From a virus, in the IMG/VR virus record IMGVR_UViG_3300035698_012907, positions 1 to 38,543 of that record: a stretch of 38,543 nucleotides of DNA; one strand, 5' to 3'. The notes under the pieces are model-generated. The model was not told where the DNA came from, did no database searches, and worked only from the letters and a program-made list of their open reading frames with translations. The position numbers and the translations under genes are program-made. Shown here one piece after another: positions 3,345-30,737 of this stretch; within the stretch, counting starts at the first letter, position 1, and every line of letters starts with the position of its first letter.

Positions 3345-3701
3345 ATGACTATTGATAAAGAAAATGTAGTTGATGTAATTAATGTTAAAGATGATGTGGT
3401 TAATATTCCAACAGAAGATGTTGATACTAGTACTGTTGATGGTACAGAAACAGAAACAGATATAGAAGATGAATTAAATAGGGATGATTTTATTATTTAT
3501 CGTGTAGAAGATGAAAAATATGCCGAATTAGAAACTGATATTATGGCCGCTGTAGATGCTAAAATAGATACTATTGTACAGACAAAGAAAACTAATTTTA
3601 TAAATGCTATGAATGGTATTACACCAGAATTAGAAATAGAGGTAGAACCTGAAACAGTTGATGTTAATGTTGATAAAGGGGATGAAAATACAGGAGAATA
3701 A
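3345..3701 (+). CDS. acidic prohead core-like protein (gp67/68-like position), 118 aa
   Basis: A very acidic protein, dominated by Asp, Glu, Val and Thr, with no Cys or Trp and no recognised catalytic motif. It lies between portal and prohead protease, exactly where T4 keeps its small internal core proteins gp67 and gp68, and it is followed two bases later by the protease gene. The assignment as a prohead core protein rests on charge and position, not on clear sequence similarity. It is preceded by AAGGAGAT, a strong ribosome-binding site. A near-match to the late promoter box (TATAAATG at 3319-3326) lies just upstream. Confidence 0.5.
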   Translation: MTIDKENVVDVINVKDDVVNIPTEDVDTSTVDGTETETDIEDELNRDDFIIYRVEDEKYAELETDIMAAVDAKIDTIVQTKKTNFINAMNGITPELEIEVEPETVDVNVDKGDENTGE

Positions 3702-3703
3702 TT

Positions 3704-4339
3704 ATGAAGCTAATCCGAGAATATACTGATTATAATGATCTTGAAATTATTAATGAGAGTACTGATAATGGAAAGAAAAAAATGAGCATTAAAGGTCCAT
3801 TTTTAGTTGCTGAAGTAAAAAATAAAAATGGTAGGATATATAAAAATGCACTTATTGAACGTGAAATAACAAAATTTACTAATGAAAAGATTAAAAATGG
3901 AAATCCATTTGGTGAATTAGATCATGCTACGACACCACTAGTTAATGGTCAAAATATTGCTATTGCTATTGATGAATTAAAAATGGATGGTAATATAGCA
4001 TATGGTAGAGCCACAGTGTTAGATACGCCAAATGGAAGAATAGTTAAATCTGTTATGAATGATGGTTATAAATTTGGTGTTAGTAGTAGAGGTGTTGGTA
4101 GTATGAATGGCCAAAATGTTAATAATGATTATATGTTTATAACAGAAGATGTTGTAACTGATCCTAGTGCGCCTGGTGCATTTGTAGATGGTATTTTAGA
4201 AAATAGAGAATATATCATGGAAGGTAATCAGTTAGTCGAAATAGCTATTGAAAATATGGATAAAAAATTAAATAAAAAAGGCTCTAAAATAATTTTGGCT
4301 GCAATGCTTGAATTTTTAGAAGAAATAAGGAGTAAATAA
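3704..4339 (+). CDS. 21: prohead core protease (T4 gp21-like), 211 aa
   Basis: Serine protease of the herpesvirus-assemblin/T4 gp21 fold that matures the prohead by cutting scaffold and capsid after (L/I)-x-Glu. The length is nearly identical to T4 gp21 (212). The likely catalytic His is His74 in the motif PFGELDHATTP and the serine is in FGVSSRGVGSM (Ser127 or Ser128); a conserved VTDPSAPGAF follows at about 151-160. The N-terminal strand (GPFLVAEVKNKNGRIYKNAL) is typical of the family. It starts 2 bp after the acidic core gene and its stop overlaps the following start by one base (TAATG). Expected substrates, gp22 and gp23, are encoded just downstream. Confidence 0.93.
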   Translation: MKLIREYTDYNDLEIINESTDNGKKKMSIKGPFLVAEVKNKNGRIYKNALIEREITKFTNEKIKNGNPFGELDHATTPLVNGQNIAIAIDELKMDGNIAYGRATVLDTPNGRIVKSVMNDGYKFGVSSRGVGSMNGQNVNNDYMFITEDVVTDPSAPGAFVDGILENREYIMEGNQLVEIAIENMDKKLNKKGSKIILAAMLEFLEEIRSK

Positions 4340-13003: not shown

Positions 13004-13381
13004 ATGAATACTGAGCTGAAATCTTTAATATCTAATACTACTAAAGTATTAGATATTCTTTTTTGTCAACTAAAAGTCGGGGCACCAAGTCGTGCTTTTG
13101 AAGTGTATTCTACTCTAACAAATAGTGTAACATCCCAATTAAAAGAACTTAGAGAACTAAATAAAACTTTATTGGATATGGTATCTAAAACAGAAACTCC
13201 ACAATCAAATTCTAATATTCAAATGACTGCTATACAATTAGCAGATCTTATAAATTCAGCTAAAGATAATTCGGAATTAAATGAAATTAATGCAGAATTT
13301 AATGTAGTTGATGATGTTGATAAGAAAGATGATAAGAAAGATGATAAGGGGGATGTTAAAATGGATGGTAAAAATGTATAA
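13004..13381 (+). CDS. 16: small terminase gp16-like, C-terminal part (125 aa from the first ATG)
   Basis: The small terminase binds DNA and regulates the gp17 packaging motor. The segment LQDYGFMNTELKSLISNTTK...APSRAFEVYSTLTNSVTSQLKELREL follows T4 gp16 (DYGVVRRNMHFQQQ...[29 protein letters not shown]). The region upstream of the ATG at 13004 in the same frame (coding back to 12914) still belongs to the similarity (LQDYGF lies before the ATG), and no ribosome-binding site precedes 13004, so the real protein probably begins at 12810 in another frame. The C-terminus is an Asp/Lys-rich tail. It overlaps the next gene by 8 bp. Confidence 0.8.
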   Translation: MNTELKSLISNTTKVLDILFCQLKVGAPSRAFEVYSTLTNSVTSQLKELRELNKTLLDMVSKTETPQSNSNIQMTAIQLADLINSAKDNSELNEINAEFNVVDDVDKKDDKKDDKGDVKMDGKNV

Positions 13382-14222
13382 GAAAAATGCTAATTTAAGA
13401 AGTGCTGGTGAAGTTATTGAACATACACCAGAAATGTTAGAAGAGTATATTAAATGTAAAGAAGATATTATTTATTTTGCTGAGACATATGTTCTTATAA
13501 ATTCTATAGATTGGGGTAAACATAAGATAATATTGATAGATTACCAAAAACAATATTTATTGAAATTAATCGATCAGAATGAAGAAAATATAATAGTAGC
13601 TAAACCTAGACGAACCGGATGTATAATAATATCTATGATTTATTATTTGCATAGGATGTTATTTAATTCAGATTTACATATTGTAATAGCTACACCTAAA
13701 ATGAATTCAACTATTTTGATATTAGATGTATTAAAGCAAATGTATGAGTTTCTACCATTATGGTTACAATGTGGAGTTGAGGTTTGGAATTCACAATTAA
13801 TTAAATTGGAAAATAATAGTATTGTTATTGCTTTATCAGTTGCTAGTGGAGATAGTTCGGTAAGAGGTATGAGAATAACTGATTTATATTTAGATGAGTT
13901 TGCTTATGCTAGGTTAGAATATGCTAAAGAATATATTGATATAGTATTTCCTGTTATAATGTCAAATAAAAATAAAATTGTTGTTACAAGTACTCCAAAT
14001 TATGAATATGATGATAATGGCATGATGAATCCTTTTTATGAATTATGGTTGAAATCCATTGATAACAATTCCGGATTTACTCCATATAGAATGTATTGGG
14101 GTCAAATATATGATCGTGATAAGCAATACAAAACCAATATGATTAAAATGATTGGAATTAAGAATTGGAATCGTGATATGGAATGCTTGGGATATGAGTT
14201 AGCAAAGAAGAAGATAAATTAA
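13374..14222 (+). CDS. inactive paralogue of the large terminase ATPase domain, 282 aa
   Basis: The start is the ATG at 13374 (MYKKNANLRSAGEVIEHTPE), aligned with the start of the true terminase at 14335 (MYQKNQNLRAAGEIVEYTPE). The two run parallel through IKCKEDIIYFA, DYQK, HRMLFNSD, LPLWLQ, DLYLDEFA (Walker B, Asp174-Glu175) and TSTPN (coupling motif). Walker A is destroyed: PRRTGCII at 78-85 instead of PRQMGKTT, so the essential Lys is Cys and the Thr is Ile. The alignment runs to the intein insertion point (MEC against FEC) and then stops. It cannot bind ATP in the usual way; a regulatory or structural role, or decay, are the options. A -1 frame continues after the stop. Confidence 0.85.
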   Translation: MYKKNANLRSAGEVIEHTPEMLEEYIKCKEDIIYFAETYVLINSIDWGKHKIILIDYQKQYLLKLIDQNEENIIVAKPRRTGCIIISMIYYLHRMLFNSDLHIVIATPKMNSTILILDVLKQMYEFLPLWLQCGVEVWNSQLIKLENNSIVIALSVASGDSSVRGMRITDLYLDEFAYARLEYAKEYIDIVFPVIMSNKNKIVVTSTPNYEYDDNGMMNPFYELWLKSIDNNSGFTPYRMYWGQIYDRDKQYKTNMIKMIGIKNWNRDMECLGYELAKKKIN

Positions 14223-14335
14223 GAGATATTGAAATAGAAGAGTGTGGTATTTCTGTTTATCATGTTAAAGAACAAGATTATTATGATAATTTGGATAAAG
14301 TAGTTTTGGGTTGTCTTGATTTTCGGGAGGAATAA
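14198..14335 (+). other. open -1 frame extending the terminase paralogue to the TerL start
   Basis: After a TGA at 14195 the -1 frame is open for 45 codons (VSKEEDKLRDIEIEECGISV...) and ends with TAA 14333-14335, which overlaps the ATG of the next gene as TAATG. No plausible start codon or binding site begins it, so it looks like the tail of the paralogue reached by a -1 shift, for example at A-AAG (14204-14207), or like the result of a one-base deletion. It does not resemble the terminase nuclease domain. Confidence 0.45.
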
Positions 14336-15225
14336 TGTATCAAAAAAATCAGAATTTACGAGCAGCTGGTGAGATAGTCGAATATACTCCTGAGATGGTT
14401 GCCAAATATATTAAATGTAAAGAAGATATTATTTATTTTGCATCTCATTATTGTTATATAATAACAATTGATTATGGTAAAATATTAATTCCATTAAGAG
14501 ATTATCAAAAAAGATTTTTAAAAGTGTTAATTGATACACCTGATAATAAGAAAAATATTTTAGCGATGTTACCTAGGCAAATGGGAAAAACTACATTATC
14601 AACTATTTATTTAGTTCATAGAATGTTGTTTAATTCTGATAAAAATATAGCTATTCTTGCTAATAAGCAGATTACATCAACAGAAATTATGGGTAAAGTT
14701 AAGATGATGTATGAGATGCTTCCTTTATGGTTACAACAAGGTGTAATTGATGGTGGTTGGAATAAACAGACAATATCATTAGAAAATGGTACAAAGGCAA
14801 TATCTGCATCTACTGCATCTACTGCGATTCGTGGTATGGCAATATCAGATTTATATTTGGATGAATTTGCATTTGTACCAACTGGAGTTGCAGATGAATT
14901 TATGGCTTCAGTATATCCAACTATTATATCTGGTAAGACATCTAAAATTATTATTACATCAACACCAAATGGGATGAATGCATTTTATCATTTATGGAGT
15001 GATGCAACAAAGGGTAAAAATAATTATTATCCTGTTAAAGTACATTGGAGAGAAATAGAAGGTCGTGATGATGAATGGAAAGAATCTGTAATAAGAGATA
15101 TCGGAATAGTAAAATTTACTGCTGAATTTGAATGTTGTGATAAAAATACTATAATAAGAGTAAAAAATAAATATACAGATGAGATAATAGAAACTACAAT
15201 TGGAAATTTTTATAATGAATTATAA
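14335..15225 (+). CDS. 17: large terminase ATPase half fused to N-terminal split-intein fragment, 296 aa
   Basis: N-terminal half of the gp17 packaging motor: adenine/Q-type region DYQKRF near 57-62, Walker A PRQMGKTT (80-87), Walker B LYLDEF (173-178, Asp176-Glu177) and coupling motif TSTPN (208-212). After FTAEFE266 the sequence turns into an intein N-fragment beginning CCDKNTIIRVKNKY (residues 267-296): Cys1 followed by N-T at positions 5-6, as in intein block A. The frame then stops, so this gene encodes N-extein plus a 30-residue Int-N. It starts behind GGGAGG. Trans-splicing with the product at 15514-16677 would yield the full terminase. It overlaps the HNH gene by 11 bp. Confidence 0.92.
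   Translation: MYQKNQNLRAAGEIVEYTPEMVAKYIKCKEDIIYFASHYCYIITIDYGKILIPLRDYQKRFLKVLIDTPDNKKNILAMLPRQMGKTTLSTIYLVHRMLFNSDKNIAILANKQITSTEIMGKVKMMYEMLPLWLQQGVIDGGWNKQTISLENGTKAISASTASTAIRGMAISDLYLDEFAFVPTGVADEFMASVYPTIISGKTSKIIITSTPNGMNAFYHLWSDATKGKNNYYPVKVHWREIEGRDDEWKESVIRDIGIVKFTAEFECCDKNTIIRVKNKYTDEIIETTIGNFYNEL
15133..15222 (+). other. N-terminal fragment of an atypically split intein (30 aa)
   Basis: Begins with Cys (TGT at 15133-15135) and ends at the stop. Choosing the first of two adjacent Cys as residue 1 puts N-T at 5-6, where block A has D-T, and restores EFE-CKFLGSS across the splice, the usual T4-like sequence EFECEFLGSS. The very short N-half matches the layout of the Ace Lake TerL split intein (about 25 + 104 residues), as I recall it. 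Confidence 0.85.
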
Positions 15226-15529
15226 GTGTAGATTTCCTAATTGTGGTTATAAAACATCTGATAGGTCACAGATAGATTTACATCATATTATACCTATATC
15301 ATTGGGTGGAACAGATGATAAATATAATAAGATATTGTTATGCCCTAATCATCATAGAAGGATTTATGTGCCTAATATAATATCTGGTACTCATATGGTG
15401 AATGCTAGTAATAAGATAGAGTTATTAGGATATTTGCTTTCTTCATCAGGTGTTTTATTAGAATATAAGATTTTTGATGGTGATATGTGTTTATATAAAA
15501 TTGAGGGGTCAAAATGGGATCAAAAATGA
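15215..15529 (+). CDS. free-standing HNH endonuclease inside the split intein locus, 104 aa
   Basis: Start chosen at the ATG 15215 (MNYKCRFPNCGYKT); a TTG at 15200 is an alternative. Motifs in order: CRFPNC zinc-type Cys pair, DLHHIIPISLGGTDD (first His pair of the HNH motif), NKILLCPNHHRRI (Asn and last His). Such small HNH enzymes cut DNA at a specific site and promote homing of the element that carries them; here the likely target is an intein-free terL allele. It overlaps the Int-N gene by 11 bp and the Int-C gene by 16 bp, so all three are probably translated from one message. It is not fused to either intein half. Confidence 0.85.
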   Translation: MNYKCRFPNCGYKTSDRSQIDLHHIIPISLGGTDDKYNKILLCPNHHRRIYVPNIISGTHMVNASNKIELLGYLLSSSGVLLEYKIFDGDMCLYKIEGSKWDQK

Positions 15530-15858
15530 AATTAAATAATAATTGGTTGATAGATACACCAGAGGGTTTTGTTGATTTTTCTGGTGTTCAGATAATAGAA
15601 GGATCTAAGATATGGTTTCATATTATATTAGAAAATAAATCATATATAAAATGTAGTCCTAATCATTTATTTGTTATAGATGAGATTGAAATGACGGCAT
15701 TGGATCTTATACCAGGAATGGTGTTACAGACTAAGATAGGTTTTGAAAAAATAATAAGTGTAGATTCATATAAAAAAGAAGGTAAGTCATTATTTGATGT
15801 TGTTGGTGTTGATAATACAAGTAGTTGTTATTATACTAATGATATTGTGAGTCATAAT
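15514..15858 (+). other. C-terminal fragment of the split intein (115 aa)
   Basis: Contains IDTPEGFVDFSGVQ, a block-B-like His in KCSPNHLF (His51), and the block F/G end LFDVVGVDNTSSCYY-TNDIVSHN followed by Cys (TGT at 15859-15861) as the +1 residue. The terminal His-Asn and the following Cys are the residues needed for Asn cyclisation and ligation. It is similar in length and order to the Ace Lake TerL Int-C as I recall it. It lacks an endonuclease domain. Confidence 0.9.
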
Positions 15859-16677
15859 TGTAAATTTTTAGGTAGTTCTAATACATTAATAGATGGTGAA
15901 GTTCTTGAACGATTAGAAACATGTGATCCAATAGCTATTAAATATAATGGTGTGTTTCAGATATATGAACATCCAGTTCCTGGTCAAATGTATATCCTTG
16001 GTATAGATAGCGCTGAAGGTACAGGTCTTGATAGTTCAGTAATACAAGTTTTAAGAATTAAATCAGAATTTGATATTCAACAAGTTGCAATATATAGATG
16101 CGATGATATAGATCCACATGCATATCAAGAAGTATGTATTGGAATTAGTAGATTTTATAATGAAGCATATATGATGTTAGAAAATAATAATGTTGGGAAT
16201 ATTGTTGGTGAAGGTATATGGTATGATTATGAATACGATAAAATATTAAATTGTGATGCGAAAGGTATTGGAATTCGTTCAACTAAAAAGACTAAATTAG
16301 CAGCTAATATGTTATTAAAACGATATATTGAAAATGGTTGGTTAGGGATTGTAGATAAAAATACAATATATGAAATTAGTTTATATACAGAAATTGCACC
16401 AAATGTTTTTAAGGCAGGTAAACATGAACATGATGATTGTGTTACATCATTATTATGGGGGGTATATTTTCTTACAACTGTTTATTTTGATGGTAAAAAT
16501 ACAGATGTTAAAATAATAGATTCTAAATTTAAATTAGAAGTTGATGATAATTCTATATGTGCTATTATTGATGATGGTTGTGATGAAGGTTGTGATGAAG
16601 GTTGTGATAAGGAAATTGATGATATATCTACATTATATGATGATGATAATTTATGGAGTTCTACTGAGTGGCAATAA
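15514..16677 (+). CDS. 17: C-terminal split-intein fragment fused to large terminase nuclease half, 387 aa
   Basis: Residues 1-115 are Int-C; the C-extein starts at Cys116 (CKFLGSSNTLID, the conserved T4-like sequence). The nuclease domain has an RNase H-like metal site: Asp165 in LGIDSAEGTGLDSS, Glu223 in YMMLENNNVG and Asp307/308 in EHDDCVTSLLWG. The C-extein is 272 residues, so spliced terminase would be 266 + 272 = 538, against 610 in T4. The tail ends with a short repeat (DEGCDEGCDKEIDD). The start ATG 15514 is preceded by GAGGGG at good spacing and overlaps the HNH gene. Without splicing neither half can package DNA, so the intein must be active if the phage is viable. Confidence 0.92.
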   Translation: MGSKMKLNNNWLIDTPEGFVDFSGVQIIEGSKIWFHIILENKSYIKCSPNHLFVIDEIEMTALDLIPGMVLQTKIGFEKIISVDSYKKEGKSLFDVVGVDNTSSCYYTNDIVSHNCKFLGSSNTLIDGEVLERLETCDPIAIKYNGVFQIYEHPVPGQMYILGIDSAEGTGLDSSVIQVLRIKSEFDIQQVAIYRCDDIDPHAYQEVCIGISRFYNEAYMMLENNNVGNIVGEGIWYDYEYDKILNCDAKGIGIRSTKKTKLAANMLLKRYIENGWLGIVDKNTIYEISLYTEIAPNVFKAGKHEHDDCVTSLLWGVYFLTTVYFDGKNTDVKIIDSKFKLEVDDNSICAIIDDGCDEGCDEGCDKEIDDISTLYDDDNLWSSTEWQ

Positions 16678-19109: not shown

Positions 19110-19661
19110 ATGAAATTTGCTATTGAATCAAGAGCCAAGAACATGGCTGATATACAATTGGCTTATAGATGGGAATTACAATTTCCTGATATAAATAAAG
19201 TAGTTGGTGATTTATTTGATGATGAACCACTTATTATTAGATGTAGAAATGTAACAATTCCTGGTATGAGTAATGAGGTAATAGAATCATATTTTATGGG
19301 TAGTGTACAAAGATATCCTGGTAAGACTAAATTTACACCTGCAATAGAAGTTATGTTTGAGGAAACTCAAGATATGGTAATATCTAAAGCATTACAGAGT
19401 TGGAATGATCAGATATATACAGCTGATCCAGATTCTGAAAATGCTGGTTCTGCTGGTGGTTTATCTAAACGAGATGGTCAAAGTATTGATGCTTATCTTA
19501 AACTTTATAGAGCTAATAATGATGATACAAGTAAGATGTTTAGGCTTTATAATGTATTTCCTTCGAATGTTGCTGATGTTAGTCTTGATTATGCTGTTAG
19601 TGATAGTGTGAAATATGCTGTTACTTTTAATATTGATTTTTTTAAGTTAATGGATTCTTAA
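19110..19661 (+). CDS. 19: tail tube protein (T4 gp19-like), 183 aa
   Basis: Hexameric rings of this beta-sandwich protein build the inner tube. Typical family features: YRWELQFPDINK early, a loop IIRCRNVTIPGMSNEVIESY near residues 46-65 and the C-terminal strands FRLYNVFPSNVADVSLDYAV followed by SVKYAVTFNIDFF. T4 gp19 is 163 residues. The start follows AGGAGGTAAAA; an internal ATG at residue 12 is less likely. It lies directly after the sheath gene, as in T4, and two diverged tube-fold paralogues follow downstream. Confidence 0.92.
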   Translation: MKFAIESRAKNMADIQLAYRWELQFPDINKVVGDLFDDEPLIIRCRNVTIPGMSNEVIESYFMGSVQRYPGKTKFTPAIEVMFEETQDMVISKALQSWNDQIYTADPDSENAGSAGGLSKRDGQSIDAYLKLYRANNDDTSKMFRLYNVFPSNVADVSLDYAVSDSVKYAVTFNIDFFKLMDS

Positions 19662-19670
19662 GGGGATTGT

Positions 19671-19904
19671 ATGAATTTTAAAGAATATAAAAAAAGTTTG
19701 TTGGAAGTAGCTCAAACTTTTACTGGGAATACAACAGAAGTCGGTAATCATTTTCATACATATAAAGTAGATGTTAGAGGGGATGGTGAAACAGATGTTG
19801 TTAATAAGCATAAACATGTTATTCAGGGTTGGGTAGTTATAACTGGAGATACTCATGTTCATGATTTATTACTTGATACCGATCAACCAAAAGCTAATAA
19901 ATAG
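19671..19904 (+). CDS. His-rich small protein, 77 aa
   Basis: The first helix is MNFKEYKKSLLEVAQ; the rest has eight His in the pattern HFHTY, HKHVIQGW and THVHDL, which would suit metal binding. I recall phage proteins with HxH-Y-x-V-D-x-x-G-x-G-x-T and H-x-H-x-I segments near tail genes, of unknown role. It is preceded by a GGGG-containing site 4-5 bases before the ATG. It lies between the tube gene and its first paralogue, followed by a long perfect palindrome. A structural or tail-tip metal-binding role is possible but not shown. Confidence 0.55.
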   Translation: MNFKEYKKSLLEVAQTFTGNTTEVGNHFHTYKVDVRGDGETDVVNKHKHVIQGWVVITGDTHVHDLLLDTDQPKANK

Positions 19905-19909
19905 AATAT

Positions 19910-19937
19910 ATGGCAGTAATAAATTTATTACTGCCAT
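19910..19937 (+). terminator. perfect 28-bp palindrome between the His-rich gene and tube paralogue
   Basis: ATGGCAGTAATAAA and its exact complement, 19910-19937. It would form a 12-14 bp hairpin. No clear T-run follows. It may be a weak terminator, an mRNA 3' end protector or a protein-binding site. Confidence 0.55.
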
Positions 19938-19964
19938 TTAACAAGTAATAAGGGAAGTTCTAAT

Positions 19965-20486
19965 ATGGCTAATTTCACACTGATGGGTCGTGCTGCAAAA
20001 ATTGCCGATCCACAACGAACGTGGATGTGGGAACTATCAATTCCTAATAATCCTATTAATACTGTACAAGAAGAAGATATAACATTACGTTGTAAGATAA
20101 GCGCTTTACCAAATAGGGCAATAGAACCTGTAGAAACATTTTTTTTGGGAAGGAAACAATTGTTTCCTGGTAGAACGACTTTCACAAATAATTTAGTTTT
20201 AACATTTGAAGAGACTGAAGATTTAAAGATAGGTCTTTGGTTAAATGCTTGGATGGAAAAAATAGAAGGTTTAAGAACTGGTGTTGGTGATTATAAAGAT
20301 AAAAAAGATATAGCAGTTGATATGCATTTATTAATGTATAGAACAACAGGTGAATTGATGAGAAGTAAAATTGTTTTTTATCAAGCATTTCCTATAATAA
20401 AGGAAGATGTGACATTAGATTATAGTTCTAGTGAATCCGTTAAATATGCGGTAACATTTGGTTTTGATGATTGGATGTTTGAATAA
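19965..20486 (+). CDS. tail tube-fold paralogue 2 (gp19 family), 173 aa
   Basis: Shares the gp19 plan: RTWMWELSIPNN early, ITLRCKISALPNRAIEPVET loop near 44-63, FLGRKQLFPGRTTF, and the end YQAFPIIKEDVTLDYSSSES followed by VKYAVTFGFDDWMFE. Compared with the first tube gene, the loop and final strands align well, while the middle differs. Possible roles are a tube variant at one end of the tail, a tail terminator, or a second tube subunit. It has a weaker binding site (AAGGGAAG). It is closely followed by a third paralogue with its own late promoter. Confidence 0.8.
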   Translation: MANFTLMGRAAKIADPQRTWMWELSIPNNPINTVQEEDITLRCKISALPNRAIEPVETFFLGRKQLFPGRTTFTNNLVLTFEETEDLKIGLWLNAWMEKIEGLRTGVGDYKDKKDIAVDMHLLMYRTTGELMRSKIVFYQAFPIIKEDVTLDYSSSESVKYAVTFGFDDWMFE

Positions 20487-20510
20487 AACATTATCTAGGC
20501 ATTACCAAAT

Positions 20511-20518
20511 TATAAATA
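20511..20518 (+). promoter_or_regulatory. T4-type late promoter for the baseplate-proximal tail operon
   Basis: Exact TATAAATA followed by CTTTT, 18 bp before the ATG at 20537. The genes from 20537 to 31224 follow on the same strand with small gaps or overlaps and no other exact box in the gaps. Confidence 0.8.
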
Positions 20519-20536
20519 CTTTTAATAGGAGGTATT

Positions 20537-21211
20537 ATGCCAAAGGGTGTTAATAAGTTAGAACTTAAGGGGTATTATAGTGGTAAAGATATTCTTAAGT
20601 CTATACAATTAAGTTATAAATTTTATGTAACATTTTTAGATAATGCAATACGTAATAGAAAGTTAATATCAGAAATTGGTATGATGCCATTTATAAAAAA
20701 TTGGCATGTTCTTAATGTTAGTATCCCTACATACGTATTTAAGAAAGAAAGTCAGAAATATGGACCAATGGTTAAAACTATACCTGTTATAGATCATGAT
20801 GGTTTTGATATAAAAATAACTTTTGAAGAAGATAGTTATGGAACTATTGCATATTTTATAAATTGGCTACAAAGAAAAATAGTTAGACAAGATGGTATGT
20901 ATAGAAATCAAGTTGATAATAGAATAGATAATTTAAATATAGAAATAGAAGATGAGCGTGGTGTTCCAGTAGGATTTTTTAATTTTAGAGATGTTTATTA
21001 TTTGGCTTCTGGTGAAGTTACATATGATTATAGCACAAATGAAAGTATAAAATATGAAGTAACATTTGGTGCAGATTATGTAAGTACACTACCAGTTAAA
21101 AGTCCTGATGCCAATATTGCTAGAGTAACAACTGCTATTGGATTGGGACAAAAAGCTGCAAGAAAGACATTAGGTGGTTTTGCTAGAAGTGCTAGTAGAA
21201 TATTGAAATAA
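20537..21211 (+). CDS. tail tube-fold paralogue 3 with C-terminal extension, 224 aa
   Basis: Recognisable gp19-type core: FYVTFLDN near residue 29, NWHVLNVSIPTYVFKKESQK as the family loop, and the end VYYLASGEVTYDYSTNESIK followed by YEVTFGADY. A basic, Gly/Ala-rich extension of about 40 residues (VTTAIGLGQKAARKTLGGFA...) is added at the C-terminus. The core has the size of a tube subunit but is longer in the middle. It could be a specialised ring linking tube and baseplate, in the manner of gp54/gp48, or a tail completion factor; the sequence does not decide. Good binding site AGGAGG. Confidence 0.7.
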   Translation: MPKGVNKLELKGYYSGKDILKSIQLSYKFYVTFLDNAIRNRKLISEIGMMPFIKNWHVLNVSIPTYVFKKESQKYGPMVKTIPVIDHDGFDIKITFEEDSYGTIAYFINWLQRKIVRQDGMYRNQVDNRIDNLNIEIEDERGVPVGFFNFRDVYYLASGEVTYDYSTNESIKYEVTFGADYVSTLPVKSPDANIARVTTAIGLGQKAARKTLGGFARSASRILK

Positions 21212-21226
21212 TATAGGAGAATTGAA

Positions 21227-22039
21227 ATGAAAGTTGAAGATATTAAAGAAGATGTTGTTTTAGATTCTGTTAAAGAACAGTCTAAGGTTATACCAAAAAA
21301 ATCAGAAGGTATTGTTGTTAAATCAGAAGAGAATTATTTTCCGGTTGATGATATACCATCTAAATATAAGATGTATCCAGAAGGAACTAAAATAATTGGA
21401 AGACCCTTAAAAGTTTTAGAATGTAAGAAACTTGCTAATATTAATAGTAGTAATGTTAATTATGTGATAAATGAAATACTTAGATCTTCTATTAAAGGTA
21501 TTAGAGTTGAAGATATTTTAACTGGTGATAAACTTTATCTTATTTTTTGGTTAAGAGCTAATACATATAGAGAGAGTGGATATGAAATAGATTTTATTTG
21601 TCCAAAATGTAATAAAGAAAGTAGTTATGAGTTTGGTTTGGATATGTTAGAGATTAATGATTTAGGTGAATTTGAAGATTCGGTATTATTAAGTGATAGT
21701 ACTCTTATTAATACTAAATTAACAACTATTGCAGATGAAGAAAAACGTGATAATTTTGTTACAAAATATGGTGTGATGATTAAAGATATTGATGAAGAAA
21801 TTGTAGAAGAAGCAATTCAAATAACAGCTATTAATGGTAAGGAATTGAGTCTTTATGAAATATATAATTATTTGATAGAATCACCACAGATATATACACA
21901 AATACATAGTCATTTAGAAAAACAAAGTTTTGGTATATTACCAATTATGAAAGTAGGTTGTGATGCTTGTGGGGGCGATGTGCCAATTGGCATTACGTTT
22001 CGAGGCCAAACGTTTCTTCCCACTTATAGAGGCAGATAA
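21227..22039 (+). CDS. tail assembly chaperone / gp26-like baseplate factor, upstream frame, 270 aa
   Basis: The protein has an acidic start, a helical middle (RPLKVLECKKLANINSSNVN) and a zinc ribbon made of FICPKCNKESS (near 124-134) and VGCDACGGD (near 244-252). This layout resembles gp26-type proteins found before the tape measure in T4-like phages. The gene lies directly before an overlapping second frame and the tape-measure candidate, the position of tail-assembly chaperones G/GT. At 21971 the sequence GGGGGCGA occurs in phase with a -2 shift into the overlapping frame. Unshifted it ends FRGQTFLPTYRGR; shifted it would make a 330-residue fusion. Confidence 0.75.
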   Translation: MKVEDIKEDVVLDSVKEQSKVIPKKSEGIVVKSEENYFPVDDIPSKYKMYPEGTKIIGRPLKVLECKKLANINSSNVNYVINEILRSSIKGIRVEDILTGDKLYLIFWLRANTYRESGYEIDFICPKCNKESSYEFGLDMLEINDLGEFEDSVLLSDSTLINTKLTTIADEEKRDNFVTKYGVMIKDIDEEIVEEAIQITAINGKELSLYEIYNYLIESPQIYTQIHSHLEKQSFGILPIMKVGCDACGGDVPIGITFRGQTFLPTYRGR

Positions 22040-22217
22040 AATACTGGAGATAAGTTATGAACTTGCTAAATTTTTTAATTGTAGTCCCTTCGGATTTGAT
22101 GATGTTGATTTTTTTGAATTTAATTGGATGTATGAAAAACTTATTACTGATATGGAACAACAAAAACCTGGAAACCAACAAAGCATAATGGCATTAGCTA
22201 ATATGATGGGACAATAA
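21960..22217 (+). CDS. tail assembly chaperone extension reached by -2 frameshift, 80-85 aa
   Basis: The frame is open from a GTG at 21960, but the more likely entry is a ribosomal -2 shift at 21971-21978, giving ACGG-AMCQLALRFEAKRFFPL and then IEADKILEISYELAKFFNCS, FGFDDVDFFEFNWMYEKL. Such a helical extension with RFFPLIEAD and a FDD-W-M-Y motif I recall as the C-terminal part of T4-like chaperone/baseplate proteins. It overlaps the upstream frame by 80 bp and ends 1 bp before the next start. An internal start is possible at the ATG 21978, though no good binding site precedes it other than the GGGGG itself. Confidence 0.7.
   Translation: MMLVGAMCQLALRFEAKRFFPLIEADKILEISYELAKFFNCSPFGFDDVDFFEFNWMYEKLITDMEQQKPGNQQSIMALANMMGQ
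21971..21978 (+). promoter_or_regulatory. candidate -2 ribosomal frameshift site GGGGGCGA
   Basis: In the upstream frame this reads GGG GGC GAT. After a -2 shift the ribosome continues GCG ATG TGC, which is exactly the frame of the 21960-22217 extension. The same octamer is, as I recall, the -2 slippery site of the phage Mu tail-assembly chaperone genes. Confidence 0.72.
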
Positions 22218-22218
22218 A

Positions 22219-23703
22219 ATGGCGAATAAACCGATAAGAAATGCTAAAGATATAGCTGATGATATGCCTGTTACACCTAAATCTAAAAAGGGATTTTTGC
22301 GTGTTAAAGATGTTGCTACAGAAGCTGCTGTTAGTAGTTCTTTAACATTAAAAAAGATTTTAGATGTTAATAGTAAAATGGGAAAATCTATTCTTAGTGG
22401 TTTTGGTGGTAAAGGTATATTTGGTGGTTTAGCTAGTTTTTTTGGATCTGATAGTTTTTTAAAGGTTATGGGTGTAGCTGGTGTTGCTTTTTGGTCAGGA
22501 TCTAATATATTTAAATTAATAGATTCTGTTAAAGAATTAATATCTAGTAATGAGAACGCTAAACGAATTGGTGAAGCTACTACATCATCTCTTGTTGCAG
22601 GTGCAGATAAACAGTCTAAAAGAATGAATCTTACTATTGAGCAATCTGCTATTAATAAACAATTAACAACAGAAACTAAAGATTTAATAGATTCATTAAG
22701 TGAGGCTAATAGAAAAGGTACAACTAGTATACTTAGAACAACTGTTGGTATATTAGCAGAACCAACAAGATGGCTTGCTAAAGGATTTGCTAAATTAACA
22801 AAAAATCAAGAATTAGCTAGTGAAATGACGGCTAAAAAAGTTAGTGATGTTCTTGATGAGGTAGTTACAGGAATAGAATTACGAAAAATATCTAAAAAAT
22901 ATGATATACCAACTGCTGGTGTTAGTAATGTTGATACTGAAAAGAGATTATATGATGAATTAGCTTTTAAGCAAAATCAAAGAAGAAATATGTTAGTAGA
23001 TTGGGGTGGTAAAGGAACTAAAGTTAGTAATGTTAAACCTAATGATAGTTCTGATATTAATTCTGGTGTTATTAATATTAAAGATATGATAAAAGAAAAT
23101 GAAGGTTTTAGAGAAAAATCATATCCAGATGCACATGGTAGATCGATTGGGTTTGGTCATTTTATTAAAAAGGGTGAAGATGAATTATTAAAAGGTAAAA
23201 TAACTAGAGGAAAGGCTGTTAAATTATTTGAAGCGGATTATAAAGATGCAGAAAAAAATGCTAGAAAATTCCCTGGATTTAATAAATTAAAACCTGGAGC
23301 TAAAGCTGTTGTTATAGATATGATGTATAATATGGGATATGACCGTTTTAATCCAAAAAAATGGAAAAATCTTGCTAGAGGTGTATCAACACAAAATTAT
23401 GGTTTAATATCAAAATCTATATCTAGTTCATTATATAGCACTCAAGTTCCAGATAGGGCAGCTAAAAACAAAGGTATATTAAGAGATAATGATATATCTT
23501 TGATGTCAACACCAACACAGCAAGTTGCTGATAATGGCGCTATATCTAAAAAACATGTTCCTACTATTGATAATGGTATTAATAAGTTTCTTGGTATATT
23601 TATAAAAGAAATGGGACAATTAGGCGGTATTATTAAAAGATCATTAGAACAAAATAAAATTGAATTTGTTAGTAGAACTATTATAAATGATAAAAAGAAT
23701 TAG
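22219..23703 (+). CDS. tape measure candidate with embedded T4-lysozyme-like domain, 494 aa
   Basis: Directly behind the chaperone pair, the place of the tape measure. Residues 50-110 include a Gly-rich, hydrophobic stretch (ILSGFGGKGIFGGLASFF, then FLKVMGVAGVAFW) typical of tape-measure membrane segments. From about 285 to 390 a GH24 muramidase domain is visible: Glu295 in KENEGF, Asp304 in SYPDAHG, Ser309 in RSIGFGH (T4 lysozyme has Glu11, Asp20, Thr26), later DMMYNMG. The enzyme would cut peptidoglycan during DNA entry. If it is the tape measure, 494 residues predict a short tail, about 70-75 nm at 0.15 nm per residue. It starts after a one-base gap. Confidence 0.75.
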   Translation: MANKPIRNAKDIADDMPVTPKSKKGFLRVKDVATEAAVSSSLTLKKILDVNSKMGKSILSGFGGKGIFGGLASFFGSDSFLKVMGVAGVAFWSGSNIFKLIDSVKELISSNENAKRIGEATTSSLVAGADKQSKRMNLTIEQSAINKQLTTETKDLIDSLSEANRKGTTSILRTTVGILAEPTRWLAKGFAKLTKNQELASEMTAKKVSDVLDEVVTGIELRKISKKYDIPTAGVSNVDTEKRLYDELAFKQNQRRNMLVDWGGKGTKVSNVKPNDSSDINSGVINIKDMIKENEGFREKSYPDAHGRSIGFGHFIKKGEDELLKGKITRGKAVKLFEADYKDAEKNARKFPGFNKLKPGAKAVVIDMMYNMGYDRFNPKKWKNLARGVSTQNYGLISKSISSSLYSTQVPDRAAKNKGILRDNDISLMSTPTQQVADNGAISKKHVPTIDNGINKFLGIFIKEMGQLGGIIKRSLEQNKIEFVSRTIINDKKN

Positions 23704-26188: not shown

Positions 26189-26959
26189 ATGAATACAGAT
26201 ATTAATAATAAATTAAAATTAAATGATGATGTAAATAGATTATTACAAGAAGTTTTGGATAAAATAGAAAATCCTAAATGGGATAATATTTACACCGGTA
26301 AAGTTGTTAATGTAGATGATCCTGATAAATTAGGTAGAGTTACTATTAGAGTTTTTGGTGTATATGGTGATGAAATAAAAGATAAAGATTTACCATGGGC
26401 TACTCCAGATCAAACTTTTGTAGGATCTAAAATGGGTAATTTTATAGTTCCACCAAAAGGTGCATTAGTACGTATATATTTTGATAATAATGATATATAT
26501 CTACCAATATATACTAGTAAAGCTATTGATAAAAATAATTTGAGTTCTAAGAGACTTACTAATTATCCTAAAAATATGATATTATTTGAAACTGATGAAG
26601 GTGATAGTTTAGAATTAAATAGACAAACAAAAAATTTATTATTTACTCATAATAGTGGAGTAACTATAGAAATAAAAAAGAATAAAAATTTTATGATATC
26701 ACAAGGTGGTCCAACCGGTGCTTCTATTGAAATGGCAAGTAATAAAGCAATTACTATTGATCAAGGTGGTCCAACTGGTGCTTCTATTGAAATGACACCA
26801 ACTGGAACAATTAATATACAAGCTGGACCTTTATCACCAATTAATCTTGGTGGAGCTAAAGCAGTTATGGCGTGTCCGGATATGCAATCGTGTATTATTA
26901 CAGGTGCTCCATTAGCAATTGGAACATTAATTCCAGGGAGTCAAGTAAATGTCCCATAA
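26189..26959 (+). CDS. 5: baseplate central spike (gp5-like) without lysozyme domain, 256 aa
   Basis: After a helical start, an OB-fold reads YTGKVVNVDDPDKLGRVTIR, VFGVYGDE, DLPWATPDQTF and PPKGALVRIYF, the classic gp5/VgrG N-terminal domain. The C-terminal part has a beta-helix-like repeat (QGGPTGASIEM twice with a 20-residue period) and ends with GLN-type strands (ALAIGTLIPGSQVNVP). T4 gp5 is 575 residues with a lysozyme domain between these two; here none is present. A lysozyme domain occurs instead in the tape-measure candidate. It overlaps the fibre gene by 11 bp. Confidence 0.85.
   Translation: MNTDINNKLKLNDDVNRLLQEVLDKIENPKWDNIYTGKVVNVDDPDKLGRVTIRVFGVYGDEIKDKDLPWATPDQTFVGSKMGNFIVPPKGALVRIYFDNNDIYLPIYTSKAIDKNNLSSKRLTNYPKNMILFETDEGDSLELNRQTKNLLFTHNSGVTIEIKKNKNFMISQGGPTGASIEMASNKAITIDQGGPTGASIEMTPTGTINIQAGPLSPINLGGAKAVMACPDMQSCIITGAPLAIGTLIPGSQVNVP
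26702..26795 (+). repeat. 60-bp tandem repeat in the spike gene
   Basis: CAAGGTGGTCCAAC-GGTGCTTCTATTG occurs at 26702 and 26762, exactly 60 bp apart, encoding QGGPTGASIEM twice. It extends the spike beta-helix by one 20-residue turn unit. Confidence 0.75.
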
Positions 26960-29900
26960 TTATAGAACTAACGATTATAGAGAAATAACTGCACTAGCAT
27001 TGGATACTTTAAGTGGTAATTACGGGTTTAATTTTGAAGTGATGCCTAGTCATAAAGTATATGAAATGGCAGTCGCTATTAATGATGGCCAACGAATTAG
27101 TGTGCCTGTTAGAGGCGATGATGGTAGATCTATTAGAATTACAGATTATGATGTTAATATAGATGCTAGAAGTAGTTTAAATTTAATAATAGAATCTATT
27201 GCTGGTAATGTAATGGATTGGGTTACAACAAGTGCCGATTTTAGTATTAGTGGAATGGGAGTTGGTAATAAAGGTTATTTAACAGAATTTATTACTAGTG
27301 CAACTATAGGTAATTCTCCAATATATAATGATGATGGTACTATTAGAATATATAATAGTAGTGTTCAATTAAAATTAGGTGAAAATGCTAATAGTATAAC
27401 AAATTTTGAAGTTACCGATGGATATTTAGATATTACTACATATGGATTTACGGTAAATGATACACAATCAGTTAGTGGTATTAGTATTGATGGTCTATTT
27501 ACAACAAATAGTGATTCAATATTAATGTCAGAAAAGGCTATCAAAACATATGTCGATGTTAATGGTGATATGGGTGGAACATTAACATCTGGTTATATAC
27601 CATATGCTATTGATGTAAATGAATTAGGAGATTCTTCAATATATAATGATGATGGAAATATAGTAATAGGTGCCACATCAACATCTGATAAATTAGAAGT
27701 AGTTGGAGACTTAAGAGTTAATATTAGTGGTGGTAGTAATAGTGGGTATATGAAATATGATACCACAAATAAAGTATTGGAATTAACATCAAATGTTGGA
27801 GATTTTGGTGAGCAATTAACATTAATGACATCAGCAACAAGTGGTGATGATCTTCCAGTGCATTTTACTGGTGTTGAAGATGGATCATTAAATATAGAAG
27901 TTGGTGATGGTGAAGATGGTATAGTTAAAATATATGGTGAGACTGATAATTTAAGTACTGTAAAAAATATGTTACAAATACATAATTTATCTACAGGTTT
28001 AGCTCCAGAAGTTGGTATGGGAGTTGGAATAGGTTTACATATGGAATGGGAACATTCACCACCTATAAAGATGGGAGGAATATCTTCTTTTTTTGTAAAC
28101 CATCAAGCAATACCTCCAAATAATGATTCAATAGCAACAGATTTATATGTTGGTGAGAGTGTACCATTACGGTTACATGATAGTAATGGTTATTTTAAAC
28201 CTGCCTATTTAGCAGAATTTTTTGGTGGTATAGAGGTAGCAGAAAATTTGGCATTAGCAGAAAGTAGTGGGCCGACTACACCTAATGCTAATTATGGATA
28301 TTTATATACAAAAAGTAATCATGCTTTGTATTATACAGATGGTGCTGGTTTAGAATCAAATTTAGTTCCTTCTGTATTAATCCAAACTTTTGCGGAATTA
28401 CAATTAGTGGTTAGTGATGCTAGACATGAATTAGAAATTGTTATTGAAAATGAAATTGTTATTTCTAGTAATTTGGTAATTCCAAATAATTTTAATTTAA
28501 ATTTTTTATCAGATGGTCAATTTACAGTAGATGCTGGAATCTCATTAACAGTTCCTCATTCATATAATTATCCACTTAAATTAATATTTGATGTGACAGC
28601 TGCTAGTTCTGCTATTACGTTTAGTTCTAGAGGAGATTTATATCCACAATGGTTTGGAGCTATGTTTAATGGGACACGTGGAGGAGCTGGAACTAATGAT
28701 ACTCCAGCATTACATTTATGTTTTGCTGCAGCAGTGGCTTCTGGTAGTAGTAATGTAGTGTGTAAAAGGTTTAGTACTTCTAATTATATCAGAATTCACA
28801 CAACTTTAACTATTCCGCGCAATATCTCATTTATTATGGATAGAAAATTAAATTTAATTTATACAGGAAGTAATAACACGGCTGGATGTGTAGTAATTGG
28901 TAGTTCAACATTAGGAACTTCAGCAAAATATAGAATAAGTGTAACTAATAGAGCTACATCTAATTGGGTTTATGATGCTAATATTGGGATTACTGTTTAT
29001 AATAGTAGTAAATCAGATTTTGAAATAAATGTTGGGTATCATACAATTGGAGTTAGATTTATCGCTAATGCTTTACCTGTGGCACATAATAAAGTTTTAA
29101 TTAGGGCTATTAGTAGTTGTAGAATAGGTATTGATTTATATTGCATGGGATTACAAGGTGTTATTAATTCTAATATATTTACAGGTGGTTTAATATCATG
29201 TTCTGAAGTTACTAATAACGGTACTGATCGTTATGGTGTTAGGATGATATCATCAGATGGTTTATATAAAAAATCTAATAATAATGTTTTTCATGGTACT
29301 TCTTTTCAGTTAGGTCAAGATGCTGCTCATGATGCTATACCAATTTTGATTGAAGATGGTGAAATGAATAGTTGGTATGATATACGTACAGATTTTTGTG
29401 GTAATTCTTCTAATCGTAATCTTACATGTATATGTAATAATAATTCAGCTGAAAATAGAATTAGAGTAGGATATGGAACTGGTAATTTGATTGAAGATAA
29501 TTCTTTATATCCATCTAATGTATTAAATTTAGCTAGGACAATAAAAAATCAAAATATTTTAGATGTGGTTTTTAGAAAACAAAGGCTTATTGATATAATA
29601 AGAAATAATAATGGTAAAATAAGTGTTCCTGGAATGTATTGGATTGATTCAACTGTTGGAGCTAAAACTTCAGATATTACAACAGCATCAATAACTATTG
29701 GAACTGATTATTTACAACTACCTAGCACACTTGGATTAGGTGTAACTGTAGATACTAGAATACAAAAAGAATTTATAATTCAAGCTTCTACATTAGACGG
29801 TTATCCTGGTAGGTTACGATTTAGACCATATGATACTAGTGGAGTTTTTCTTGATAATACTGATCCTGATATTCCTGTTGTTAGGGGTAATATATTTAGT

Positions 29901-30737
29901 TCGACCCAGTATATTGGTGTAGCTTTTGGGTCTTGTTGGGTACAGGGATCGGATGATACACAGGATTATTTTGTAAAATGTAATAGTAATGTAGAATCTA
30001 TGGATATTTTTATAACTGGAAGTACTGCTGATATAAGATTAATTGGCCTTGAAATAAAATCAGTAGAGCATGCACCTGTTTATAATAATTATGAAAAGGG
30101 GTATGCTATTGTAGATGATGGAGAAAATGTAGTAATAGGAGGTACATCTACTACAGAAAAATTAGATGTCCGTGGTAATTTATTTGTATCTGCAGATGAT
30201 GGGGAACGAGATGATGATTGGGTTGGAGAGTTCTATAATCAAGAAGCAACAGATGGTAGAAGTTATGGAGTATATATACAGGCTGGAAGTACTTCAGGTG
30301 ATTCTGCATTATTAATTAAAAATCATGATGCTGTTAATACAATATTAGATATAAAGGGTGGTGGATCTATAGGAATTGGAACAAGTTCTCCCGATATATA
30401 TAATTTTGCTGCTAGAAATCTAGTGGTATCAGATACTGGTGGCAATGCTGGAATAACAATAGTATCGTCTACAACAGATTCAGGTAGGATATATTTTGCT
30501 GATGGTACAGGATTAGCGGCATATGAGGGTTACGTGACATATGATCACAGTTTAAATTCCTTGAATTTTGGTACTAATAATACACTTAGAATGTCAATTG
30601 ATTCTAGTGGAAATGTTTATATACCATATATGCCTAGTGGTGCGACTCAAGTTGCTTCTGGAGTAGGTATAAATAAGTTATGGCGAACTAGTAGTCATGC
30701 AACTTTACCAGATAATGTGGTTATGATAGGAGCATAA
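26949..30737 (+). CDS. large tail fibre / tailspike protein, 1262 aa
   Basis: The N-terminal 200 residues probably anchor to the baseplate. Around residues 475-640 a pectate-lyase-like beta-helix entrance is seen: repeated beta segments, then LYPQWFGAMFNGTRGGAGTN with TPALHLCFAAAV, the usual start of such tailspike domains, followed by parallel beta-helix-like strands. Repeated motifs SIYNDDGNIVIGATSTSDKL near residue 230 and DDGENVVIGGTSTTEKLDVR near 1055, plus SIGIGTSSPD, are modular fibre sequences. It would bind or cut host surface polysaccharide. No obvious self-cleaving S74 chaperone end is present. It begins inside the spike gene and is followed by a glycosyltransferase-like gene. Confidence 0.8.
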   Translation: MSHNYRTNDYREITALALDTLSGNYGFNFEVMPSHKVYEMAVAINDGQRISVPVRGDDGRSIRITDYDVNIDARSSLNLIIESIAGNVMDWVTTSADFSISGMGVGNKGYLTEFITSATIGNSPIYNDDGTIRIYNSSVQLKLGENANSITNFEVTDGYLDITTYGFTVNDTQSVSGISIDGLFTTNSDSILMSEKAIKTYVDVNGDMGGTLTSGYIPYAIDVNELGDSSIYNDDGNIVIGATSTSDKLEVVGDLRVNISGGSNSGYMKYDTTNKVLELTSNVGDFGEQLTLMTSATSGDDLPVHFTGVEDGSLNIEVGDGEDGIVKIYGETDNLSTVKNMLQIHNLSTGLAPEVGMGVGIGLHMEWEHSPPIKMGGISSFFVNHQAIPPNNDSIATDLYVGESVPLRLHDSNGYFKPAYLAEFFGGIEVAENLALAESSGPTTPNANYGYLYTKSNHALYYTDGAGLESNLVPSVLIQTFAELQLVVSDARHELEIVIENEIVISSNLVIPNNFNLNFLSDGQFTVDAGISLTVPHSYNYPLKLIFDVTAASSAITFSSRGDLYPQWFGAMFNGTRGGAGTNDTPALHLCFAAAVASGSSNVVCKRFSTSNYIRIHTTLTIPRNISFIMDRKLNLIYTGSNNTAGCVVIGSSTLGTSAKYRISVTNRATSNWVYDANIGITVYNSSKSDFEINVGYHTIGVRFIANALPVAHNKVLIRAISSCRIGIDLYCMGLQGVINSNIFTGGLISCSEVTNNGTDRYGVRMISSDGLYKKSNNNVFHGTSFQLGQDAAHDAIPILIEDGEMNSWYDIRTDFCGNSSNRNLTCICNNNSAENRIRVGYGTGNLIEDNSLYPSNVLNLARTIKNQNILDVVFRKQRLIDIIRNNNGKISVPGMYWIDSTVGAKTSDITTASITIGTDYLQLPSTLGLGVTVDTRIQKEFIIQASTLDGYPGRLRFRPYDTSGVFLDNTDPDIPVVRGNIFSSTQYIGVAFGSCWVQGSDDTQDYFVKCNSNVESMDIFITGSTADIRLIGLEIKSVEHAPVYNNYEKGYAIVDDGENVVIGGTSTTEKLDVRGNLFVSADDGERDDDWVGEFYNQEATDGRSYGVYIQAGSTSGDSALLIKNHDAVNTILDIKGGGSIGIGTSSPDIYNFAARNLVVSDTGGNAGITIVSSTTDSGRIYFADGTGLAAYEGYVTYDHSLNSLNFGTNNTLRMSIDSSGNVYIPYMPSGATQVASGVGINKLWRTSSHATLPDNVVMIGA

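Follow-up and report, generated by a model that had tools for sequence, protein, structure and literature searches.

The question raised by this locus is how ribosomes might enter a second open frame that overlaps the end of a T4 gp26-like tail gene in a viral DNA stretch of 38,543 nucleotides (IMG/VR record IMGVR_UViG_3300035698_012907; the whole stretch analysed is referred to as the window). The second frame is open from 21957/21960 to 22217 and stands in a +1/−2 relation to the zero frame of the gp26-like gene; the original prediction had it entered by a −2 shift of the phage Mu type at the octamer GGGGGCGA. Comparison of the site with its relatives makes it very probable that the shift is instead +1, at one of two UUU_C sites, and that it yields a G/GT-like pair of short and long tail chaperones. 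The features of the locus are given in Table 1.

Table 1. Features of the gp26-like gene and the overlapping frame (window coordinates).
Feature	Position	Strand	Remarks
gp26-like tail-assembly-chaperone gene, zero frame, 270 aa (putative short form, G-like)	21227..22039	+	PF12322, PHROG 150
ATG in overlapping frame, possible independent start	21963..21965	+	weak upstream AGTAGG at 21952-21957
GGGGGCGA octamer, phase GGG GGC GAT	21971..21978	+	encodes Gly-Gly after CxxC of zinc ribbon; not supported as shift site
Candidate slip site 1, ACG TTT CGA (UUU_C, +1)	21995..22003	+	UUU at 21998-22000
Overlapping +1/−2-frame segment (T-like); 71 codons long for a shift at site 1	22002..22217	+	+1-frame homologue in L184
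Candidate slip site 2, ACG TTT CTT CCC (UUU_C, +1)	22010..22021	+	UUU at 22013-22015
Zero-frame stop TAA, end of short form	22037..22039	+	
Next gene, lysozyme-domain tail protein, tape-measure position	22219..23703	+	PF00959 7.9e-8, PHROG 7/430

The zero-frame ORF belongs to the family PF12322 (T4_baseplate; E = 1.9e-10, 41.2 bits, Pfam gathering score 24.5) and matches the baseplate hub family PHROG 150 at 3.7e-13. The AlphaFold model of its product (pLDDT 85) was matched by Foldseek to phage baseplate hub and gp26- and gp51-like predicted folds; profile and fold searches against solved structures gave no convincing match. The gene is flanked by the sheath/tube genes on one side and by a long tail gene on the other, and the corresponding tape-measure position in many relatives is occupied by tape-measure, glycoside-hydrolase or other long tail genes. 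A second frame overlapping between the tube and tape-measure genes, as in a G/GT pair, was found in the window and in its relatives; gene position and family together point to a chaperone function. Elsewhere in the window (GC content 28%), the terminase large subunit appears to be in three pieces within 13308-16677 (13308-14222, 14335-15225 and 15514-16677), which may reflect introns, inteins or frame breaks; the tail-tube family PHROG 45 is matched by three adjacent ORFs within 19110-21211 (19110-19661, 19965-20486 and 20537-21211); and a 1262-aa ORF of the baseplate region (26949-30737) matches no PHROG family.

Relatives were collected by tblastn of phage records, which gave gp26-like genes in phages of Thermus, Streptococcus, Acinetobacter, Rhizobium, Vibrio, E. 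coli, Pseudomonas, Flavobacterium, Bacillus, Listeria and other hosts, and by three scans of viral contigs with sheath alignments (80 loci each, some contigs repeated); scans with a single protein, gp26 or capsid protein, had hardly any yield. The set obtained by profile searches comprises 148 complete gp26-like genes including that of the window, 126 of them non-redundant. After the zero-frame stop, the +1/−2 frame remains open for at least 25 codons in 100 of the 126 non-redundant genes (median 42 codons); the median for the −1 frame is 11 codons. Both a +1 frame of at least 18 codons after the stop and a UUU slip codon in the overlap are present in 106 of the 126. In no database record fetched for these relatives are the two frames joined, and in many of the records the second has no annotation. 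The huge phage LR756500 (L020) carries, besides its +1-frame segment, a small separate ORF resembling the T-like segment (3535-3714). It is extremely improbable that the overlap in the window is due to chance or to a sequencing artefact (a miscounted G run) and gives no second product: homopolymer runs are error-prone, but the overlap is family-wide, the zero frame aligns with that of the closest relative (L184, 43% identity in gp26) both before and after the run, and the +1 segments of the two are homologous.

The octamer was confirmed at its predicted place and in its predicted phase, the zero frame around it being TGT GGG GGC GAT GTG; it is unique in the window, 0.05 copies being expected from whole-window dinucleotide shuffles (one copy in 5 of 100 shuffles). 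A −2 shift does lead from it into the overlapping open frame, giving ACGG-AMCQLAL as predicted, and a +1 shift would enter that frame equally. The resemblance to Mu held for the letters: the Mu record AF083977, which annotates a verified −2 frameshift, contains the identical octamer. It did not hold for phase and mechanism. The reading phase in Mu is CGG GGG CGA, which lets GGG slip perfectly onto GGG; in the window the octamer is one base out of that phase, and by the pairing rules a −2 slip would carry the tRNAGly of GGC onto GGG and leave G opposite G in the wobble position. In favour of such a Mu-like slip (expected peptide VGCDACGGAMCQLALR) are the eight identical letters, the correct frame relation and a G run that is unusual in a genome of 28% GC; besides the imperfect pairing, it is opposed by the distribution of the octamer, found in 1 of the 148 gp26-like genes, namely the window's own, and replaced in L184 by GGA GGT TTT with the overlapping frame still kept. 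The fusion would moreover lose the second strand of the zinc ribbon (residues 251-255 in the AlphaFold model), whose codons follow the octamer and precede the UUU_C sites. A Mu-type −2 shift at the octamer was rejected for its wrong phase and its lack of conservation, and is considered very unlikely.

The same G run could be used in the other direction, by a +1 slip of tRNAGly on GGG_G followed by GCG ATG (expected peptide VGCDACGAMCQLALR). Here GGG would re-pair perfectly with GGG, and the codon order, GGG (3.9 per 1000) and then the rare GGC (1.6 per 1000), is favourable; against this stand the loss of the G run in L184 (GGA GGT) and the finding that the +1 frame is closed nine codons or fewer upstream of the UUU slip in 50 of the 106 relatives, which rules out a shift at the octamer-equivalent position in those genes. 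Very little probability is therefore left to a +1 shift at the G run, and the octamer is not supported as a shift site in either direction.

The overlap regions of the relatives contain conserved slip codons that differ between clades. In class A (53 genes), the Pro-Phe pair of the overlap is encoded with TTT in 53 of 53 cases, mostly as CCC TTT CGT. The codon before TTT is CCC (40), CCG (9), CCT (3) or CCA (1); the codon after it is CGT (30), CGA (7), CGC (5), CAA (4) or one of a few others, and wherever Arg follows Phe it is encoded by CGN (42 of 42). From the codon usage of each locus, the probability of TTT throughout is 10^-14.5 and that of CGN for every Arg 10^-17, values that overstate the certainty, the sequences being related and not independent. 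Outside the gp26-like gene, ORFs of these loci use TTT CGN for Phe-Arg in 34 of 258 cases (13%) and within Pro-Phe-Arg in 0 of 8. Class B (37 genes) has TTT TTT TGG CCT in 29 genes and TTT CTT TGG CCT in 3, with at least 50 codons of the +1/−2 frame after the stop; the CTT variants permit +1 slipping on UUU_C and offer no good re-pairing for −2. Class C (13 genes: L258, L259, L261, L262, L263, L264, L267, L268, L269, L272, L129, L118 and L116) has, near the stop, a run of the form T TTT TTT or T TTT TTC; the −1 frame of these genes extends for 42-98 codons and the +1 frame for no more than 20. The joint occurrence of a −1 slippery run and a long −1 frame in class C suggests that the direction of the shift has changed within the gp26-like family. 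In each clade the overlap thus contains a conserved slippery site, UUU_C, UUU_UUU_UGG or U_UUU_UUU, as would be looked for in a G/GT pair, and the second ORF lies in the frame that goes with the type of site, as programmed frameshifting would lead one to expect. Five relatives do not fit this scheme (L088, L091, L108, L248 and L266). In L091 and L108 the +1 frame extends for four codons or fewer after the gp26-like stop and the −1 frame for about 50-70 codons, which may stem either from an error in the sequence or from a genuine change of direction.

The window itself has two UUU_C sites, whose starts lie 27 and 42 bases downstream of the octamer's first G, and both are kept in L184, from which the octamer has gone: ACG TTT CGA GGC CAA ACG TTT CTT CCC in the window is aligned with GTG TTT CGC AGC GAT TTC TTT CTT CCC. 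The position of site 1 is occupied by TTT CGC in L184, by CCC TTT CGT in L022 and L023, and by CCC TTT CGA in L247, L250, L251, L253, L257 and L271; it combines a zero-frame UUU_C, CGN in the A site and an open +1 frame, as in influenza PA-X, and its CGA codon is rare in the window genome (2.8 per 1000). Site 2 is UUU_C without CGN. Its TTT CTT CCC is identical in L184; the same position reads TTC TTT CGT CCC in L007, TTT TTT CGC CCG in L172 and TTT TTT CTT CCC in L165, where the +1 frame does not open until 12 codons before the stop. The +1-frame products of the window and L184 align well from site 2 onward (FFP.I..D...EI) and poorly before site 1. At both sites of the window the E-site codon is ACG, as opposed to the preferred CCC/CCG of class A, and no 3' RNA structure in the window was significant against shuffles (z +0.6 and +1.3). 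On sequence grounds, the chance that the slip occurs at site 1 (UUU_CGA) is put at about even, and site 2 (UUU_CUU) is a somewhat weaker candidate.

The second frame could also be a separate gene that starts on its own (at ATG 21963 after AGTAGG, ATG 21978 or GTG 21960) and is never fused. Start codons are present in the overlap, and in some deposited relatives the second frame is annotated as a separate hypothetical protein; however, an ATG with an SD-like sequence is rightly placed in only 9 of the 106 relatives, the +1 frame of L184 has no ATG equivalent to that at 21963, and the fixed TTT CGN or TTT TTT TGG codons would be left unexplained. An independent start of the second frame was accordingly rejected as not general, and a separate gene in the window is judged unlikely. 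The original prediction had regarded relatives that lack the octamer and have a usual start for the second frame as evidence against it: the octamer is indeed missing, and the start with its SD-like sequence is confined to the 9 relatives just mentioned.

The preferred reading, a +1 shift at UUU_C, would operate as follows. Normal reading of the gp26-like gene would give the short chaperone of 270 aa; at low frequency, a +1 slip on UUU before C would give a longer one of about 329 aa, the peptidyl-tRNAPhe re-pairing from UUU to UUC and translation continuing in the overlapping frame to 22217. Both products would retain the full zinc-ribbon N domain, and the long form would gain a C-terminal segment; the second zinc-ribbon strand being encoded between the octamer and the UUU_C sites, only a shift at UUU_C keeps this strand in both. 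By analogy with G/GT, the pair would coat the tape measure and recruit tube subunits. That ribosomes slip here, at what rate, and in classes A and B by +1 and not by −2, we infer from the sequences compared. The tryptic junction peptides expected for the window phage are VGCDACGGDVPIGITFEAK for +1 at site 1 and GQTFFPLIEADK for +1 at site 2. The idea of a frameshifted G/GT-like pair ahead of the tape measure in a T4-like phage is supported by the comparison, and its −2 direction is not.

A review finds G-T frameshifting to be widely conserved among long-tailed phages, T4 being excepted (PMC5009743), and T4-like phages have been described as the exception to the rule (PMC5009743; likewise Vladimirov 2022, as cited in PMC10885494). 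The gp26-like family indicates that relatives of T4 do frameshift, mostly by +1 and at a motif fitting the class of UUU_C stimulators that was predicted from influenza PA-X (PMC3498833), and provides a wide natural set of bacterial +1 sites from phages of hosts ranging from Thermus to Pseudomonas; according to PRFect (PMC10885494), no general motif of forward frameshifting has been identified so far. In the literature searched, no paper links gp26-like genes to frameshifting, although some frameshifting relatives may already be mentioned in Vladimirov 2022.

Among known systems, the lambda-type G/GT tail assembly chaperones (Xu, Hendrix and Duda 2004, as reviewed in PMC5009743) likewise have a short and a long form, made from frames that overlap immediately before the tape-measure gene, with a direction of shift that varies among phages; in contrast to them, the present gene belongs to the T4 gp26/PF12322 family with a zinc ribbon, and its motif is UUU_C (+1) or UUU_UUU_UGG. 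With the −2 frameshift of phage Mu gp41 the window shares the letters of the octamer and the frame relation (+1 equals −2 modulo 3), and differs in the octamer phase and in that the octamer is not kept among its relatives. The site itself resembles that of influenza A PA-X, where +1 shifting at UCC_UUU_CGU was demonstrated from the junction peptide and a class of UUU_C +1 stimulators was predicted (PMC3498833): a P-site slip on UUU_C, an A-site CGN and a preference for a particular E-site codon are common to PA-X and to the class A consensus CCC_UUU_CGU, whereas the genes are unrelated and the ribosomes of the phage case are bacterial.

T4 itself has two genes, gp26 and gp51, where the window has one gene and an overlapping frame, and the protein family is the same: gp26 and gp51 match the family profile at 2e-7 and 4e-6, the best of 200 shuffles reaching 0.13. 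The C-terminus of gp51 was rejected as a homologue of the T-like segment, their score not exceeding that of shuffled sequence. In some T4-like phages, according to Vladimirov, Gautam and Davidson (Virology 2022, as quoted in PMC10885494), the mechanism is not frameshifting and the short and long chaperones have a gene each; we infer these genes to be gp26 and gp51. Taken over the family, a programmed +1 shift at a conserved UUU_C, most often CCC_UUU_CGU, appears likely to be the source of the chaperone pair in a large part of the T4 superfamily, with sister clades using UUU_UUU_UGG (+1) or a −1 heptamer; gp26 and gp51 of T4 would then be two paralogues that have taken the place of frameshifting.
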